From a virus, in the IMG/VR virus record IMGVR_UViG_3300012207_000010, positions 1 to 27,850 of that record: a stretch of DNA of 27,850 bases. One strand, written 5' to 3'. The notes below the pieces were generated by a model. It saw only the letters and a list, made by a program, of their open reading frames with translations, made no database searches and was not told the origin of the DNA. The translations under genes were made by a program, and so were the position numbers. Below, in pieces: positions 6,304-21,569 of this stretch; within the stretch, counting starts at the first letter, position 1; each line of letters opens with the position of its first letter.

Positions 6304-6328
6304 CACGTTTGTGTTTTTACGGTATAGT
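6300..6328 (+). promoter_or_regulatory. Promoter for the endonuclease gene, predicted leaderless
   Basis: TATAGT at 6323-6328 with CGGACA 17 bases upstream at 6300-6305. Seven bases past the hexamer is 6335, the A of the ATG, so the mRNA would start on the start codon. No Shine-Dalgarno is present ahead of that ATG. Confidence 0.55.
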
Positions 6329-6334
6329 GGACAC

Positions 6335-6982
6335 ATGAAAGAAACTTGCCGTGGCCCAGAGTGCGTCAGCCCAATCGGGTACCCGAAGTCAGGACTGTGC
6401 CGAACCCACTACCAGCAGATGTGGAAGGGGAGGGAGCTAACCCCGAAACAGGCATGGAAATGGGAAGGCGCTCTGTGCGAGTTCGGTGGGTGCCAGGGAC
6501 TTGTCCGGGCGAAGGGGCTATGCGGGGGTCATTACCAGCAACGGCGCAGGGACCAGGAATTGACGTCGCTCCGGGAGACTAAACGAACGGACATCCGCGA
6601 TGAATCTGGGCGTAAGCGTTGCAGCAAGTGCAGGGAGTGGCTACCTGAGTCGGAGTTCTACCCCCTGCGGAGTCAGGCGACCCGCGATGGTTTGAGTACC
6701 AATTGCAACTTGTGTGATCTCCTATGCAAGTATCAGATCACCGCTAACGAGTACCGCGAGATTCTTCGGTCTCAGGGCGGGGGGTGCGCTATCTGCCACC
6801 GAGTCACAGAAGTTGTATGCGTGGATCATGACCACTCTTGCTGCCCAGAGCGCAAGCGGTCGTGCGGTAAGTGCGTCCGGGGGTTGCTGTGTCCGGACTG
6901 CAATGGAGCCCTAGGGCTAATGGCGGATGACCCGCAGCGTCTAAGGAACGCTGCGGACTACTTGGAGGGGGTGAGTTCATGA
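6335..6982 (+). CDS. Endonuclease VII-type HNH endonuclease (free-standing)
   Basis: T4 endonuclease VII / HNH family, 215 aa from ATG 6335. The N-terminus has two zinc-finger-like repeats: CRGPECVSP...GLCRTHYQQ, then CEFGGCQG...GLCGGHYQQRR. A CSKC...CNLC pair follows. The catalytic region is QGGGCAICHR, D164-H-D-H167 (VCVDHDH), then CVRGLLCPDCNGALG and a helical DDPQRLRNAADYL end. Such genes act as junction resolvases, or as homing endonucleases that invade intergenic sites. GTG 6311 is in frame but has no Shine-Dalgarno, while ATG 6335 fits a leaderless transcript. The TGA stop overlaps the terL ATG. Its position between terS and terL, with 11-bp repeats at both ends, marks it as an insertion. 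Confidence 0.85.
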   Translation: MKETCRGPECVSPIGYPKSGLCRTHYQQMWKGRELTPKQAWKWEGALCEFGGCQGLVRAKGLCGGHYQQRRRDQELTSLRETKRTDIRDESGRKRCSKCREWLPESEFYPLRSQATRDGLSTNCNLCDLLCKYQITANEYREILRSQGGGCAICHRVTEVVCVDHDHSCCPERKRSCGKCVRGLLCPDCNGALGLMADDPQRLRNAADYLEGVSS

Positions 6983-7083
6983 GCGTCGGAGAGGTGGCCC
7001 GGCATATCTACGCCCCATTGGGAACGGCTACCGAACTGTTTCGCTACCGGGGGCCGGAGATTCTTCTTTCCGGCCCCGCTTGA
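6979..7083 (+). CDS. terL: Large terminase, N-terminal segment (34 codons, then UGA)
   Basis: ATG 6979 overlaps the endonuclease stop (ATGA). The frame reads MSVGEVARHIYAPLGTATEL, FRYRGPEILLSGPA, then stops at TGA 7081-7083. This is the normal start of a phage terminase: an adenine-binding-type segment, then ILLSGPA, the first half of the Walker A motif GPAGTGKS. The second half (GTGKSRACLEK) continues 7 bases later in another frame. The break may be a mutation, an assembly error or a recoding site (see 7078-7090). The upstream frame cannot be a separate gene in any ordinary sense, because its last residues are half of a P-loop. Confidence 0.75.
   Translation: MSVGEVARHIYAPLGTATELFRYRGPEILLSGPA
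6980..6990 (+). repeat. 11-bp direct repeat, right copy
   Basis: TGAGCGTCGGA, identical to 6293-6303. It overlaps the endonuclease stop codon and codons 1-4 of terL. Confidence 0.75.
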
Positions 7084-7090
7084 GGCTGGC
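7078..7090 (+). other. Interruption of the Walker A codons: GCT, UGA, G, GCT, GGC
   Basis: Codon GCT (7078-7080) is followed by in-frame UGA (7081-7083), one G, then a second GCT (7085-7087) and GGC (7088-7090) in the frame of the main terminase ORF. Skipping from the first GCT to the second removes 7 bases and yields GPA-GTGKS exactly. A simple +1 shift at the stop would give GPAEAGTGKS, which puts Ala in place of the first P-loop Gly. Matched take-off and landing codons around a stop are the pattern of ribosomal bypassing. A 7-bp insertion mutation or sequencing error fits equally well. Confidence 0.6.
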
Positions 7091-8314
7091 ACCGGGAAGT
7101 CCAGGGCTTGCCTTGAGAAGATGCACGCTCTGATGATGGCCAATCCGATGGCTCGTGGCGTGATGCTGCGGAAGACTGCGGTATCCCTCACGTCCACAGC
7201 TCTCGTGACGTTCAAAGAGCATGTGGCCAAGGAAGCCATCGATTCCGGTGAGGTTTCATGGTTCGGCGGTTCCCCCCAGGACTCCCCCGGATACATCTAT
7301 TCCAACGGCAGCAAACTAGCCGTCGGGGGAATGGACAAGGCCACCCGGATCATGTCGTCGGAGTACGACTGCGCCTACGTGCAGGAAGCCACAGAGCTTA
7401 CCGAGGAAGACTGGGAGGCAATCACCTCCCGACTCCGGAACGGCCGGATCTCCTTTCAGCAGATCATGGCCGACTGCAACCCTGACGTTCCACACCACTG
7501 GCTGAAACTCCGGGCCGACCGGGGTCGCCTGAACATGCTGAACTCTCAGCACACCGACAACCCGCGCCTGTACCAGGGCGGTGAGCTGACCGAGTACGGC
7601 GCAGCGTATATGGAGAAGCTGGACGCTCTGACAGGCGTCCGCAAGCTGCGTCTCAGGGGCGGTATCTGGGCCGCTGCCGAGGGACTCGTGTATGACGAGT
7701 TCGATCCGGCGGTGAACCTGCACAAGCGGATCGGTGAGCCTCCCCAGACATGGCGCCGGTTCTGGTCCATAGACTTCGGGTATACCAACCCGTTCGTGTG
7801 GCAGGCATGGGCCATCGACCCCGACGACCGGATGTACCTTTATAAGGAGATCTACCAGACCCGGACCCTGGTGGAGGACCATGCCAAGGCGATCTTGGCA
7901 TCCTTCGGTGGGAGGCAGCGGGAGAGCGCTCCCGAAGCCATCATCTGCGACCACGATGCGGAGGGTCGCGCCACCCTTGAGCGCTACTTGGGGCGCAGCA
8001 CGGTGGCCGCTAAGAAAGACGTGTCGGTGGGTATCCAGGCCGTACAGACCCGTATGAGGGTGCGCGGCGACGGCCGTCCGGGGCTGTACATCTGCCGCGA
8101 TGCGCTGCAGAAGCGGGACGAGTCCCTGGCTGACTCCCGGCGTCCGATGTCCACTCAGGATGAGATCGTGGGGTACGTGTGGGACCGGACCGGGAACCAT
8201 GCTCCCAAGGAAGTCCCTGTAAAGGACAATGACCACGGTATGGACGCGATGCGGTATGCCGTTGCTCACGTAGACTTGGGCCGACGACCCCAGTACCGGT
8301 CGTTCCGATACTAG
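7088..8314 (+). CDS. terL: Large terminase, main segment (ATPase remainder and nuclease)
   Basis: Motor and nuclease of DNA packaging; 408 residues here, 442 when joined to the N-terminal segment, normal for TerL. It begins with GTGKSRACLEK (rest of Walker A), then LRKTAVSLTSTALVTF. Walker B is DCAYVQEATEL (about 7367-7399) and the coupling motif is MADCNPD. The RNase H-like nuclease keeps its acidic residues: SIDFGYTNPF, IICDHDAEGRATLERYLG and DNDHGMDAMRYAV. The first ATG in this frame (7121) has no suitable Shine-Dalgarno, and a protein started there would lack the P-loop, so re-initiation would give a non-packaging product. The rest of the frame is intact, which argues against long-standing decay. 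Confidence 0.92.
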   Translation, partial: GTGKSRACLEKMHALMMANPMARGVMLRKTAVSLTSTALVTFKEHVAKEAIDSGEVSWFGGSPQDSPGYIYSNGSKLAVGGMDKATRIMSSEYDCAYVQEATELTEEDWEAITSRLRNGRISFQQIMADCNPDVPHHWLKLRADRGRLNMLNSQHTDNPRLYQGGELTEYGAAYMEKLDALTGVRKLRLRGGIWAAAEGLVYDEFDPAVNLHKRIGEPPQTWRRFWSIDFGYTNPFVWQAWAIDPDDRMYLYKEIYQTRTLVEDHAKAILASFGGRQRESAPEAIICDHDAEGRATLERYLGRSTVAAKKDVSVGIQAVQTRMRVRGDGRPGLYICRDALQKRDESLADSRRPMSTQDEIVGYVWDRTGNHAPKEVPVKDNDHGMDAMRYAVAHVDLGRRPQYRSFRY

Positions 8315-13791: not shown

Positions 13792-14343
13792 ATGAGAGGC
13801 AGCAGCAAGTGCGAACCGGGTTGCCAGTGCGGACGACACACACGCTCTGGCAACCGGGTCCCGCGAGCATCACAGGAAACGGTCGTTGATTGGAACGACC
13901 CCGAAGCGCGCAGGGCGTACAACCGCGAGAAAGCTCGTGAGGCGTACGCAGCGGACCCGGAAAAATTCAAAGCCGCGTCTAGAAAGCATCACGCTAAGAA
14001 GAGGGCGGAAGACCCCGATTACTGGCGACAGTACAAAAGGAGTATTTCCAGTGATCTAAAGTACGCTCACGGGATCACTTGGGATCAACTCCGGGGGATC
14101 ATCCTTTCCCAGGGCGGTAACTGCTACCTGTGTGAAGAGCCTCTAGATCCGGAAGCTCCGAGGGGAGTGCACGTGGACCACGACCACGAGTGCTGTCAAG
14201 GTTCGCGTTCCTGCGGAAAGTGCATCCGTGGGGCCGCTTGCCACTACTGCAACGCGGGTATCGGTCACTTTCGGGACAATCCGGATCGTATGGAACGCGC
14301 GGCCCGGAACCTCCGGGCCGCAAACGCCCGCCTACGCGGGTAG
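13792..14343 (+). CDS. Second endonuclease VII-type HNH endonuclease
   Basis: A 183-aa protein. The N-terminus has a metal-binding-like knuckle, CEPGCQCGRHTRSGN. A long basic helical linker follows (about 33-85, with EARRAYNREKAREAY and KAASRKHHAKK). The endonuclease VII core runs from YAHGITWDQLRGIILSQGG through CYLCEE, D129-H-D-H132 (HVDHDHECC), CIRGAACHYCNAGIGHF and DNPDRMERAARNL. The core is related to that of the first endonuclease, but the N-terminal modules differ, so this is not a recent duplication. ATG 13792 lies at the predicted transcription start, and AAGG 1 base upstream is too close to serve as a Shine-Dalgarno. Its position right after the capsid gene is a typical homing-type insertion site. 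Confidence 0.85.
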   Translation: MRGSSKCEPGCQCGRHTRSGNRVPRASQETVVDWNDPEARRAYNREKAREAYAADPEKFKAASRKHHAKKRAEDPDYWRQYKRSISSDLKYAHGITWDQLRGIILSQGGNCYLCEEPLDPEAPRGVHVDHDHECCQGSRSCGKCIRGAACHYCNAGIGHFRDNPDRMERAARNLRAANARLRG

Positions 14344-15519: not shown

Positions 15520-15535
15520 CGGAAAGGATCAAAGA

Positions 15536-15817
15536 ATGCCCAAGGCCACCAGCGGAGGATCTACCAACGCGTGGGAGGAAGCCGTCCGGGAAACCGTCGG
15601 TTTCGTCCAGAGCATCATCCATCCGCACGGCACCGAAGCTGCTCCCGAGACTGCTCCCGAGACTGCTCCCGAAGCTGCTCCCGAAGCTGCTCCCGAAGCT
15701 GCTCCCGAGACTGCTCCCGAGACTGCTCCCGAGACTGCTCCCGAAGCTGCTCCCGAAGCTGCTCCCGAAGCGTTCATGGGTGACAAGTTCGCGCAGGGTG
15801 AAACCAAGGAGGCGTGA
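15536..15817 (+). CDS. Repeat protein with E(A/T)AP tetrapeptides (93 aa)
   Basis: ATG 15536 with GGAAAGG at 15521-15527; the frame is open upstream only as a shadow through the terminator. A short head (MPKATSGGSTNAWEEAVRE, TVGFVQSIIHPHGT) is followed by eleven tandem EAAP or ETAP units, then EAFMGDKFAQGETKEA. The repeats would form an extended, acidic Pro/Ala rod or spacer. Copy number probably varies between relatives. The stop overlaps the next ATG (TGATG). Function unknown; a flexible linker or surface appendage peptide is plausible. Confidence 0.7.
   Translation: MPKATSGGSTNAWEEAVRETVGFVQSIIHPHGTEAAPETAPETAPEAAPEAAPEAAPETAPETAPETAPEAAPEAAPEAFMGDKFAQGETKEA
15635..15766 (+). repeat. 12-bp tandem repeat, 11 copies
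   Basis: Units GAAGCTGCTCCC and GAGACTGCTCCC alternate in the order A,T,T,A,A,A,T,T,T,A,A (second residue Ala or Thr). The runs suggest growth by block duplication of several units. The opposite strand also stays open through it because the unit length is a multiple of three. Confidence 0.95.
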
Positions 15818-16038
15818 TGGCTGACGGCGGAGGGGTGACCGGGTGGGACCTCTACTCCACCCTGGCACTACAGGCTTCGTACATCGACTATTACGCCACT
15901 CAGCCCCCGTTGGCCTGTCCCAACGACGGAGAGCCTCTCCGGTTGGGTCCGCCCAATCAGCCTGGCGCCTGGTACTGCCCTTACGACGGGTGGAAGTACC
16001 CGAACGACTGGGACCCGGCGACTCACTCGGGTATGTAG
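15817..16038 (+). CDS. Small CPxD/CPYD zinc-ribbon-like phage protein (73 aa)
   Basis: ATG 15817 overlaps the previous stop and has AAGGAGG at 15806-15812; GTG 15814 is too close. The sequence GWDLYSTLALQASYIDYYA, PLACPNDGEPL, WYCPYDGWKYPNDWDP holds two C-P-x-D knuckles, probably a metal site. I believe similar small proteins occur near the head genes of many actinophages, but that is memory, not a search. It precedes two beta-rich genes. Function unknown. Confidence 0.7.
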   Translation: MADGGGVTGWDLYSTLALQASYIDYYATQPPLACPNDGEPLRLGPPNQPGAWYCPYDGWKYPNDWDPATHSGM

Positions 16039-21036: not shown

Positions 21037-21435
21037 ATGGGATTCACACCCCCGCGTAAGCAGTACCGATTGAAGTTCCAGGACTCCGACTTGGAGGGCC
21101 TGGAAGTCCTCATGAATTCCGCGTCGTTGGGAGACATCATGGCTCTGCAGACGACGGACACTGGGGACACTACCCCCGAGAACCTGGAAAAGCTTCTTTC
21201 CATCCTGGAAAGGGCGATGGTTTCCTGGAATGTGGAGATCGATGGGGAGCCTGTCCCTGCCACGCTCGCGGGATTCGAGAAGATGGACATTTCGTTCGTC
21301 ATGGCCATCATCTCCTCTTGGACAGAGGCTATCTCTGGAGTGGCGCCCCCTTTGCCCGGAAGCTCTCCCTCTGGCGAGACGTACCAGGAGGTGTCGCTCC
21401 CGATGGAACCGTTGTCTCCGAACCAAGGGAGCTAG
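21037..21435 (+). CDS. Tail assembly chaperone, short form (gpG-like)
   Basis: 132 aa from ATG 21037 with GAGAGG upstream. Helical protein (SASLGDIMALQTTD, ENLEKLLSILERAMVSWNVE, KMDISFVMAIISSWTEAISG) in the invariant position just before the tape measure gene. gpG-type chaperones coat the tape measure during tail assembly. After the slippery site the zero frame continues as a low-complexity Pro/Ser tail (PPLPGSSPSGETYQEVSLP) to TAG 21433-21435. Confidence 0.85.
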   Translation: MGFTPPRKQYRLKFQDSDLEGLEVLMNSASLGDIMALQTTDTGDTTPENLEKLLSILERAMVSWNVEIDGEPVPATLAGFEKMDISFVMAIISSWTEAISGVAPPLPGSSPSGETYQEVSLPMEPLSPNQGS

Positions 21436-21569
21436 GCTACGCGAACTTCATCCTGGGAACGTTGGAGAGGTTCGGGGGGTACACCCTTAAGACGCTGTTG
21501 GAAGAGGACGCGGAACTTCTGCAACTGCTGAACATCGAAGCTATGGGACGGCCGGACGAAGGAGGGTAG
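21037..21569 (+). CDS. Tail assembly chaperone, frameshifted long form (gpGT-like, 177 aa)
   Basis: Programmed -1 frameshifting at 21348-21354 would join residues 1-106 of the short form to 71 residues of the overlapping frame. The added part reads ARKLSLWRDVPGGVAPDG, then LGYANFILGTLERFGGYTLK and TLLEEDAELLQLLNIEAM, ending at TAG 21567-21569. The downstream frame has no good start of its own and finishes 4 bases before the tape measure GTG. This is the lambda G/GT arrangement, where the T domain contacts tail-tube protein. Confidence 0.85.
21348..21354 (+). other. -1 ribosomal slippery heptamer
   Basis: CCCTTTG read as C CCT TTG in the zero frame: both P- and A-site codons can re-pair after a one-base slip (to CCC and TTT). 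This is the X-XXY-YYZ pattern with X=C, Y=T, Z=G, placed where the two chaperone frames overlap. Confidence 0.85.

Follow-up and report, generated by a model that had tools for sequence, protein, structure and literature searches.

A putative short translational bypass in the Walker A codons of a phage large terminase gene and similar inserts in a second terminase family

A terL gene broken inside its Walker A codons

How is a large terminase subunit (TerL) made from a gene whose reading frame ends inside its Walker A motif? This question is raised by IMGVR_UViG_3300012207_000010, a linear IMG/VR virus record of 27,850 bp, which was analysed over its whole length and is referred to here as the window. 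Its genes include those for capsid, portal, family A DNA polymerase and TerL, and it probably belongs to a virus of soil bacteria, with actinobacterial hosts. Elsewhere in the window, the tape measure gene is preceded at 21037-21569 by two ORFs that overlap (21037-21435 and 21318-21569) and resemble a frameshifted tail assembly chaperone pair, and a repetitive ORF at 15520-15820 contains abundant (E)APETAPEAAPE repeats.

The 5′ ORF of terL is located at 6979-7080 on the plus strand, as are all terL features described below. It has 34 codons in frame 0 from the ATG at 6979 and ends in ...EILLSGPA, and its amino acids are kept with the relatives L004, L002 and L003 in frame 0 only. The last codon, GCT (Ala; 7078-7080), is the putative take-off codon and is the same in L004. 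It is followed by TGAGGCT (7081-7087), a 7-nt insert relative to 74 uninterrupted relatives, whose version in L004 is TGAAGCA. The insert is made up of a putative 4-nt coding gap, TGAG (7081-7084), beginning with the stop codon TGA (7081-7083), and a putative landing codon for Ala, GCT (7085-7087; GCA in L004). The 3′ ORF (7088-8314) continues in the +1 frame from GTGKS to the stop at 8312-8314, and matches PF04466 (Terminase_3) and phrog_2 (terminase large subunit). At the junction, frame 0 reads TCC GGC CCC GCT TGA, and the +1 frame reads GAG (7082), GCT (7085-7087), GGC ACC GGG AAG TCC. A GCT-to-GCT hop gives LLSGPAGTGKS, and a +1 slip on GCT gives LLSGPAEAGTGKS. The initial annotation had described a terL frame broken in Walker A by GCT and TGA with resumption in the +1 frame, a hop that restores GPAGTGKS, and an otherwise intact gene. 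The break and the restored motif are exact in the window sequence, and the +1 frame is open to 8314. The GCT codons described as matched are the same on both sides of the stop in the window, but L004 would land on GCA, so "matched" is to be read as synonymous.

We consider a programmed short-distance translational bypass, or stop-hop, the probable explanation for the window terL. Ribosomes would read frame 0 to the Ala codon GCT and then face UGA in the A site. The peptidyl-tRNA-Ala would let go of GCT, pass over four nucleotides and re-pair with a second Ala codon, which is GCU in the window and GCA in L004; translation would pick up in the +1 frame after landing. The predicted TerL keeps its P-loop unchanged as GPAGTGKS, and its junction tryptic peptide would be GPEILLSGPAGTGK. 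The locus has two disjoint ORFs that make up one protein by homology and are both under selection. The landing codon matches the take-off codon (GCT/GCT in the window, synonymous GCT/GCA in L004), and a slow A-site codon, TGA in both phages, follows the take-off. We infer the hop itself, its efficiency, a role for the 5′ hairpin described below and any regulatory or immunity benefit.

A second phage with the insert, and its uninterrupted relatives

L004 is IMGVR_UViG_3300012351_000018, a contig of 37.6 kb whose TerL is 78% identical to that of the window over the 3′ ORF. Its P-loop reads GGC CCC GCT TGA A GCA GGT ACG GGC AAG, with the insert in the same place as in the window. The two inserts have diverged at two of seven positions (TGAGGCT and TGAAGCA). 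Among the first 13 codons after the stop, the amino acid is kept in 12 and nine codons are silently changed. The dN/dS of terL downstream of the insert was 0.137 at a dS of 1.2, and over the 27 codons upstream frame 0 is conserved and the +1 frame is not. The codon conservation and dN/dS indicate that both halves of terL are translated and selected, and with them the P-loop, which lies after the stop and before the following ATG. Judged by these codon changes, terL is under purifying selection on either side of the insert. In a comparison of nucleotide conservation 5′ of the stop, the window and L004 agreed at 35/39 positions, which was not significant, as 28/395 gene windows match equally.

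The P-loop is uninterrupted and of one fixed length in 74 other contigs of the window TerL family (71 contigs and L036, L039 and L051), and the terL genes of Dagobah, P1312 and Mischief19 are uninterrupted. The initial annotation had set uninterrupted relatives, together with a non-viable phage, against a bypass. Such relatives exist, but L004 is interrupted in the same way, and given the selection on terL, non-viability of the window phage is not indicated. In the TerL tree, L004 was placed outside the group of the window, L002 and L003, and a sister relationship of the window and L004 was rejected (p 0.018). The insert may therefore have been lost in L002 and L003, moved between phages, or arisen twice. 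The presence of the Ala version in only two phages, which are not sisters, counts against a hop, as does the wobble-base difference in the L004 landing codon.

When 2.9 million viral contigs were scanned with a degenerate pattern, L004 was the only match in a P-loop context; the scans exclude the window's own record and near-identical records. Other viral patterns yielded only chance or ordinary in-frame matches when further interrupted GxAGTGK-type P-loops were sought. Bacterial and archaeal genomes (84,980 scanned) gave 14 pattern matches, which were random and were discarded.

An 11-bp RNA hairpin of uncertain relevance is predicted at 7050-7077 (+), ending just before the take-off codon. 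Its z score was -2.7 in the window, -2.5 in L004, -3.6 in the uninterrupted L002 and -0.2 in L003, and the fold 3′ of the window insert was ordinary. Forward sliding of the ribosome in T4 gene 60 is promoted by structures that fold behind it (PMC11194080), and by analogy a similar role is possible for the window hairpin. As the driver of the hop it is not favoured, since its presence in uninterrupted L002 makes it unspecific to interrupted genes and such hairpins are not the rule in the phrog_9 cases described below. No tRNA genes, and hence no phage-encoded special tRNA, were found in the window or in the contigs of L002-L004.

An HNH endonuclease VII-type gene (6311-6982, +) overlaps the start of terL. 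The initial annotation had pointed to a link with mobile endonucleases as in T4 gene 60. This link is not supported, as insert-bearing L004 has no HNH counterpart upstream of terL and insert-free L107 has one. An HNH-linked mobile cassette as in T4 was thus rejected, the HNH gene and the insert not being linked. A second endonuclease VII-type HNH gene lies after the capsid gene of the window (13792-14343), with 53-64% identity to the L003 and L004 contigs.

Recurring inserts in phrog_9 terminases

Together with isolates, pattern scans of viral contigs gave 44 non-redundant TerLs of phrog_9, a family with the motif KGWGKD that is unrelated to the phrog_2 TerL of the window, that carry inserts after the Walker A Gly codon; interrupted members are L129, L131, L134, L137, L139-L182 and L216-L218. 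The inserts are 4-13 nt long, with lengths modulo 3 of 1, 2 and 0 in 19, 14 and 11 cases. Landing is on GGN, synonymous with the take-off Gly codon, in 42/44. The first codon of the insert is TTA in 19, TGA in nine, TAG in seven, TAA in three, AGA in two and others in four, so that a stop or TTA opens 38/44 inserts. No sense codons are rarer in phrog_9 genes than TTA and AGA. The last scan, which placed no condition on the insert end, gave 28 TerL matches with 18 distinct inserts. A GGN end was present in 25/28 (chance about 2e-13 on the 18 distinct inserts) and a TTA, TGA or TAG start also in 25/28 (chance about 6e-16 on the same 18); the absence of a GGN end from the other three counts against a hop.

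Close phrog_9 relatives differ in insert length (TTACGGC, TTACCGGC and TTACCCCGGT), with purifying selection across frames. These differing lengths and frames exclude frame-specific shifting as an explanation and fit GGN-to-GGN hopping. The inserts with lengths divisible by three, taken alone, could also reflect stop readthrough. Exceptions were seen in L216, L217, L218, L142 and L157: TTATCGAAGAC and TAGCTGAGC lack a GGN end, GATTTTTTGGC has a run of six T, and AGGC would leave a 1-nt gap. Errors are one possible cause in L157 (insert AGGC) and L142 (six T, with a very long branch).

Four plaque-forming isolates, the Streptomyces phages phiHau3, GreenWeasel, BroPlease and Triumph, have a terL insert. 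Genes with such inserts get split by annotation, into two or three annotated genes in GreenWeasel (L081), BroPlease (L082) and Triumph (L220). The Walker A codons of phiHau3 carry a 10-nt insert and read AAG GGT TGG GGC TTACTCC GGT AAG GAC; the uninterrupted terL of Yosif reads AAG GGC TGG GGC AAG GAC. Most of the isolate matches listed for the phrog_9 TerL have spans equal to an uninterrupted gene, and all eight examined by sequence were uninterrupted. A second insert is found about 315 nt past the Lys codon of Walker A and just before Walker B, at a site occupied by a single Ser codon in uninterrupted relatives. It reads TCT TTAACGG TCC in phiHau3 (L066) and GreenWeasel (L081), TCT TTAGCGG TCC in L162 and L181, and TCT TTAG TCC in L175. 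The Walker B insert follows the Walker A design, set between Ser codons.

The 4-nt gap of the window, GCT TGAG GCT, resembles GGT TGAA GGA in L150 and GGT TGAA GGC in L176, and the window insert is of the phrog_9 design with Ala codons. Since flanking codons that are synonymous without being identical, as in GGT to GGA, occur often with phrog_9 inserts, GCT to GCA in L004 is no obstacle. The phrog_9 set probably outweighs the window case in importance. Gap length, A-site codon and codon pair vary naturally within it, and because it includes plaque-forming Streptomyces phages, the minimal needs for a ribosome hop are directly testable. The programmed short bypass that the initial annotation had offered as one of two readings was strengthened by the same insert in L004, by the exact restoration of the P-loop and by the matched-codon inserts of many lengths in phrog_9 TerLs, and it stands as probable.

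Alternative readings and comparison with known systems

A programmed +1 frameshift, either at GCU-UGA or at the preceding CCC-GCU, is an unlikely explanation, although it survives best among the alternatives. It would add two residues to the P-loop (GPAEAGTGKS or GPLEAGTGKS), with a junction tryptic peptide GPEILLSGPAEAGTGK that is heavier by 200.08 Da than that of the hop. The frame fits in both the window and L004, the +1 codons GAG/GAA and GCT/GCA differ silently only, UGA stands in the A site as in prfB, and A-E-A-G-T-G-K-S still matches the loose pattern [AG]x4GK[ST]. However, none of the 74 relatives has a P-loop insertion, and re-pairing from GCU to CUU is impossible at the first base. 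The site also lacks a Shine-Dalgarno sequence 3 nt upstream and has UGAG or UGAA instead of UGAC, and the analogous phrog_9 inserts, which fall in all three frames, are unreadable by +1 slipping. From the phrog_9 analogy and the P-loop argument, we clearly favour a hop over a +1 shift.

We give very little weight to separate initiation or reinitiation, by which the 3′ ORF would be translated alone or TerL would consist of two pieces. Stop-start coupling is common in phages, and L004 has an upstream ATG in the +1 frame. In the window, however, the first ATG, GTG or TTG of this frame after the TGA at 6980 is the ATG at 7121. As this codon lies past the P-loop, independent initiation of the 3′ ORF would leave the P-loop out. 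The +1 frame is not conserved upstream of the insert, and the P-loop codons between the stop and that ATG are under selection. An in-frame mRNA produced by excising the insert from RNA or DNA, or by slippage of RNA polymerase, seems hardly probable. It would also account for variable lengths with an unaltered product, but we know of no bacterial system that takes out inserts of 4-13 nt, the CCCC run at the site is short for slippage, and the stop or rare codon right after take-off would be left unexplained. A dead or misassembled terL, the other reading in the initial annotation (a 7-bp insertion in a defective phage or assembly), would suit a gene disrupted by 7 nt in two metagenome contigs, but it is contradicted by the diverged insert in the independent contig L004, by the purifying selection and by the similar inserts in plaque-forming isolates, and is most improbable.

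Taking the hop as the preferred reading, we think it rather likely that short bypass elements repeatedly entered the ATPase-motif codons of actinobacterial phages in two or more TerL families, and that a stop or the rarest codon in the A site with a synonymous codon within about ten nucleotides nearly suffices. The window would add a second TerL family to the bypass candidates, with UGA and Ala codons. A guard against homing nucleases has been proposed for the T4 gene 60 insert (PMC5009743). As the motif codons are among the most conserved terL DNA, the inserts might shield these sites from homing nucleases, or might act as a brake on TerL translation.

The only published terL bypass candidate found is in Streptomyces phage phiHau3, named with prophage StrepC.1 in a review (PMC5009743, its reference 161); this unproven case has been attributed to UUA biology. 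No earlier report of a wider interrupted-TerL set appeared in the literature searched, which covered few subscription journals. As in phiHau3, the window insert lies in Walker A codons with synonymous flanks and a slow codon after take-off, and the motif is restored. phiHau3 differs in family and sequence (phrog_9, KGWGKD, Gly, UUA and a 10-nt insert, against phrog_2, GPAGTGKS, Ala, UGA and 7 nt in the window) and in its second insert near Walker B. Both terL genes are, from their sequences, candidates for bypassing.

Like prfB, the window site has UGA in the A site and would resume in the +1 frame, but it lacks +1 re-pairing, an adjacent Shine-Dalgarno sequence and a C after UGA, and related inserts occur in all frames. 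In Magnusiomyces capitatus mitochondria, many short inserts are skipped and the codons are only partly matched in several cases (PMC5009743). The terminase inserts are likewise short and not always flanked by identical codons, but those of M. capitatus involve mitochondrial ribosomes and many genes, compared with phage terL in probable actinobacterial hosts here. In the literature examined, T4 gene 60 and yeast mitochondria are the only well-established cases of natural bypassing. The T4 gap is about 50 nt, compared with 4 nt in the window, and its gap stem-loop, KKYK-like nascent peptide (the window leader has 34 residues) and Shine-Dalgarno sequence before landing are absent from the window; their absence counts against a hop. 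T4 gene 60 is linked to a homing endonuclease gene, unlike the window insert and its neighbouring HNH gene, and a hairpin placed like its 5′ stem-loop is predicted not only in the window and L004 but also for the uninterrupted gene of L002. If the terminase inserts are indeed bypassed, natural bypassing would be far commoner and simpler than T4 gene 60 suggests.
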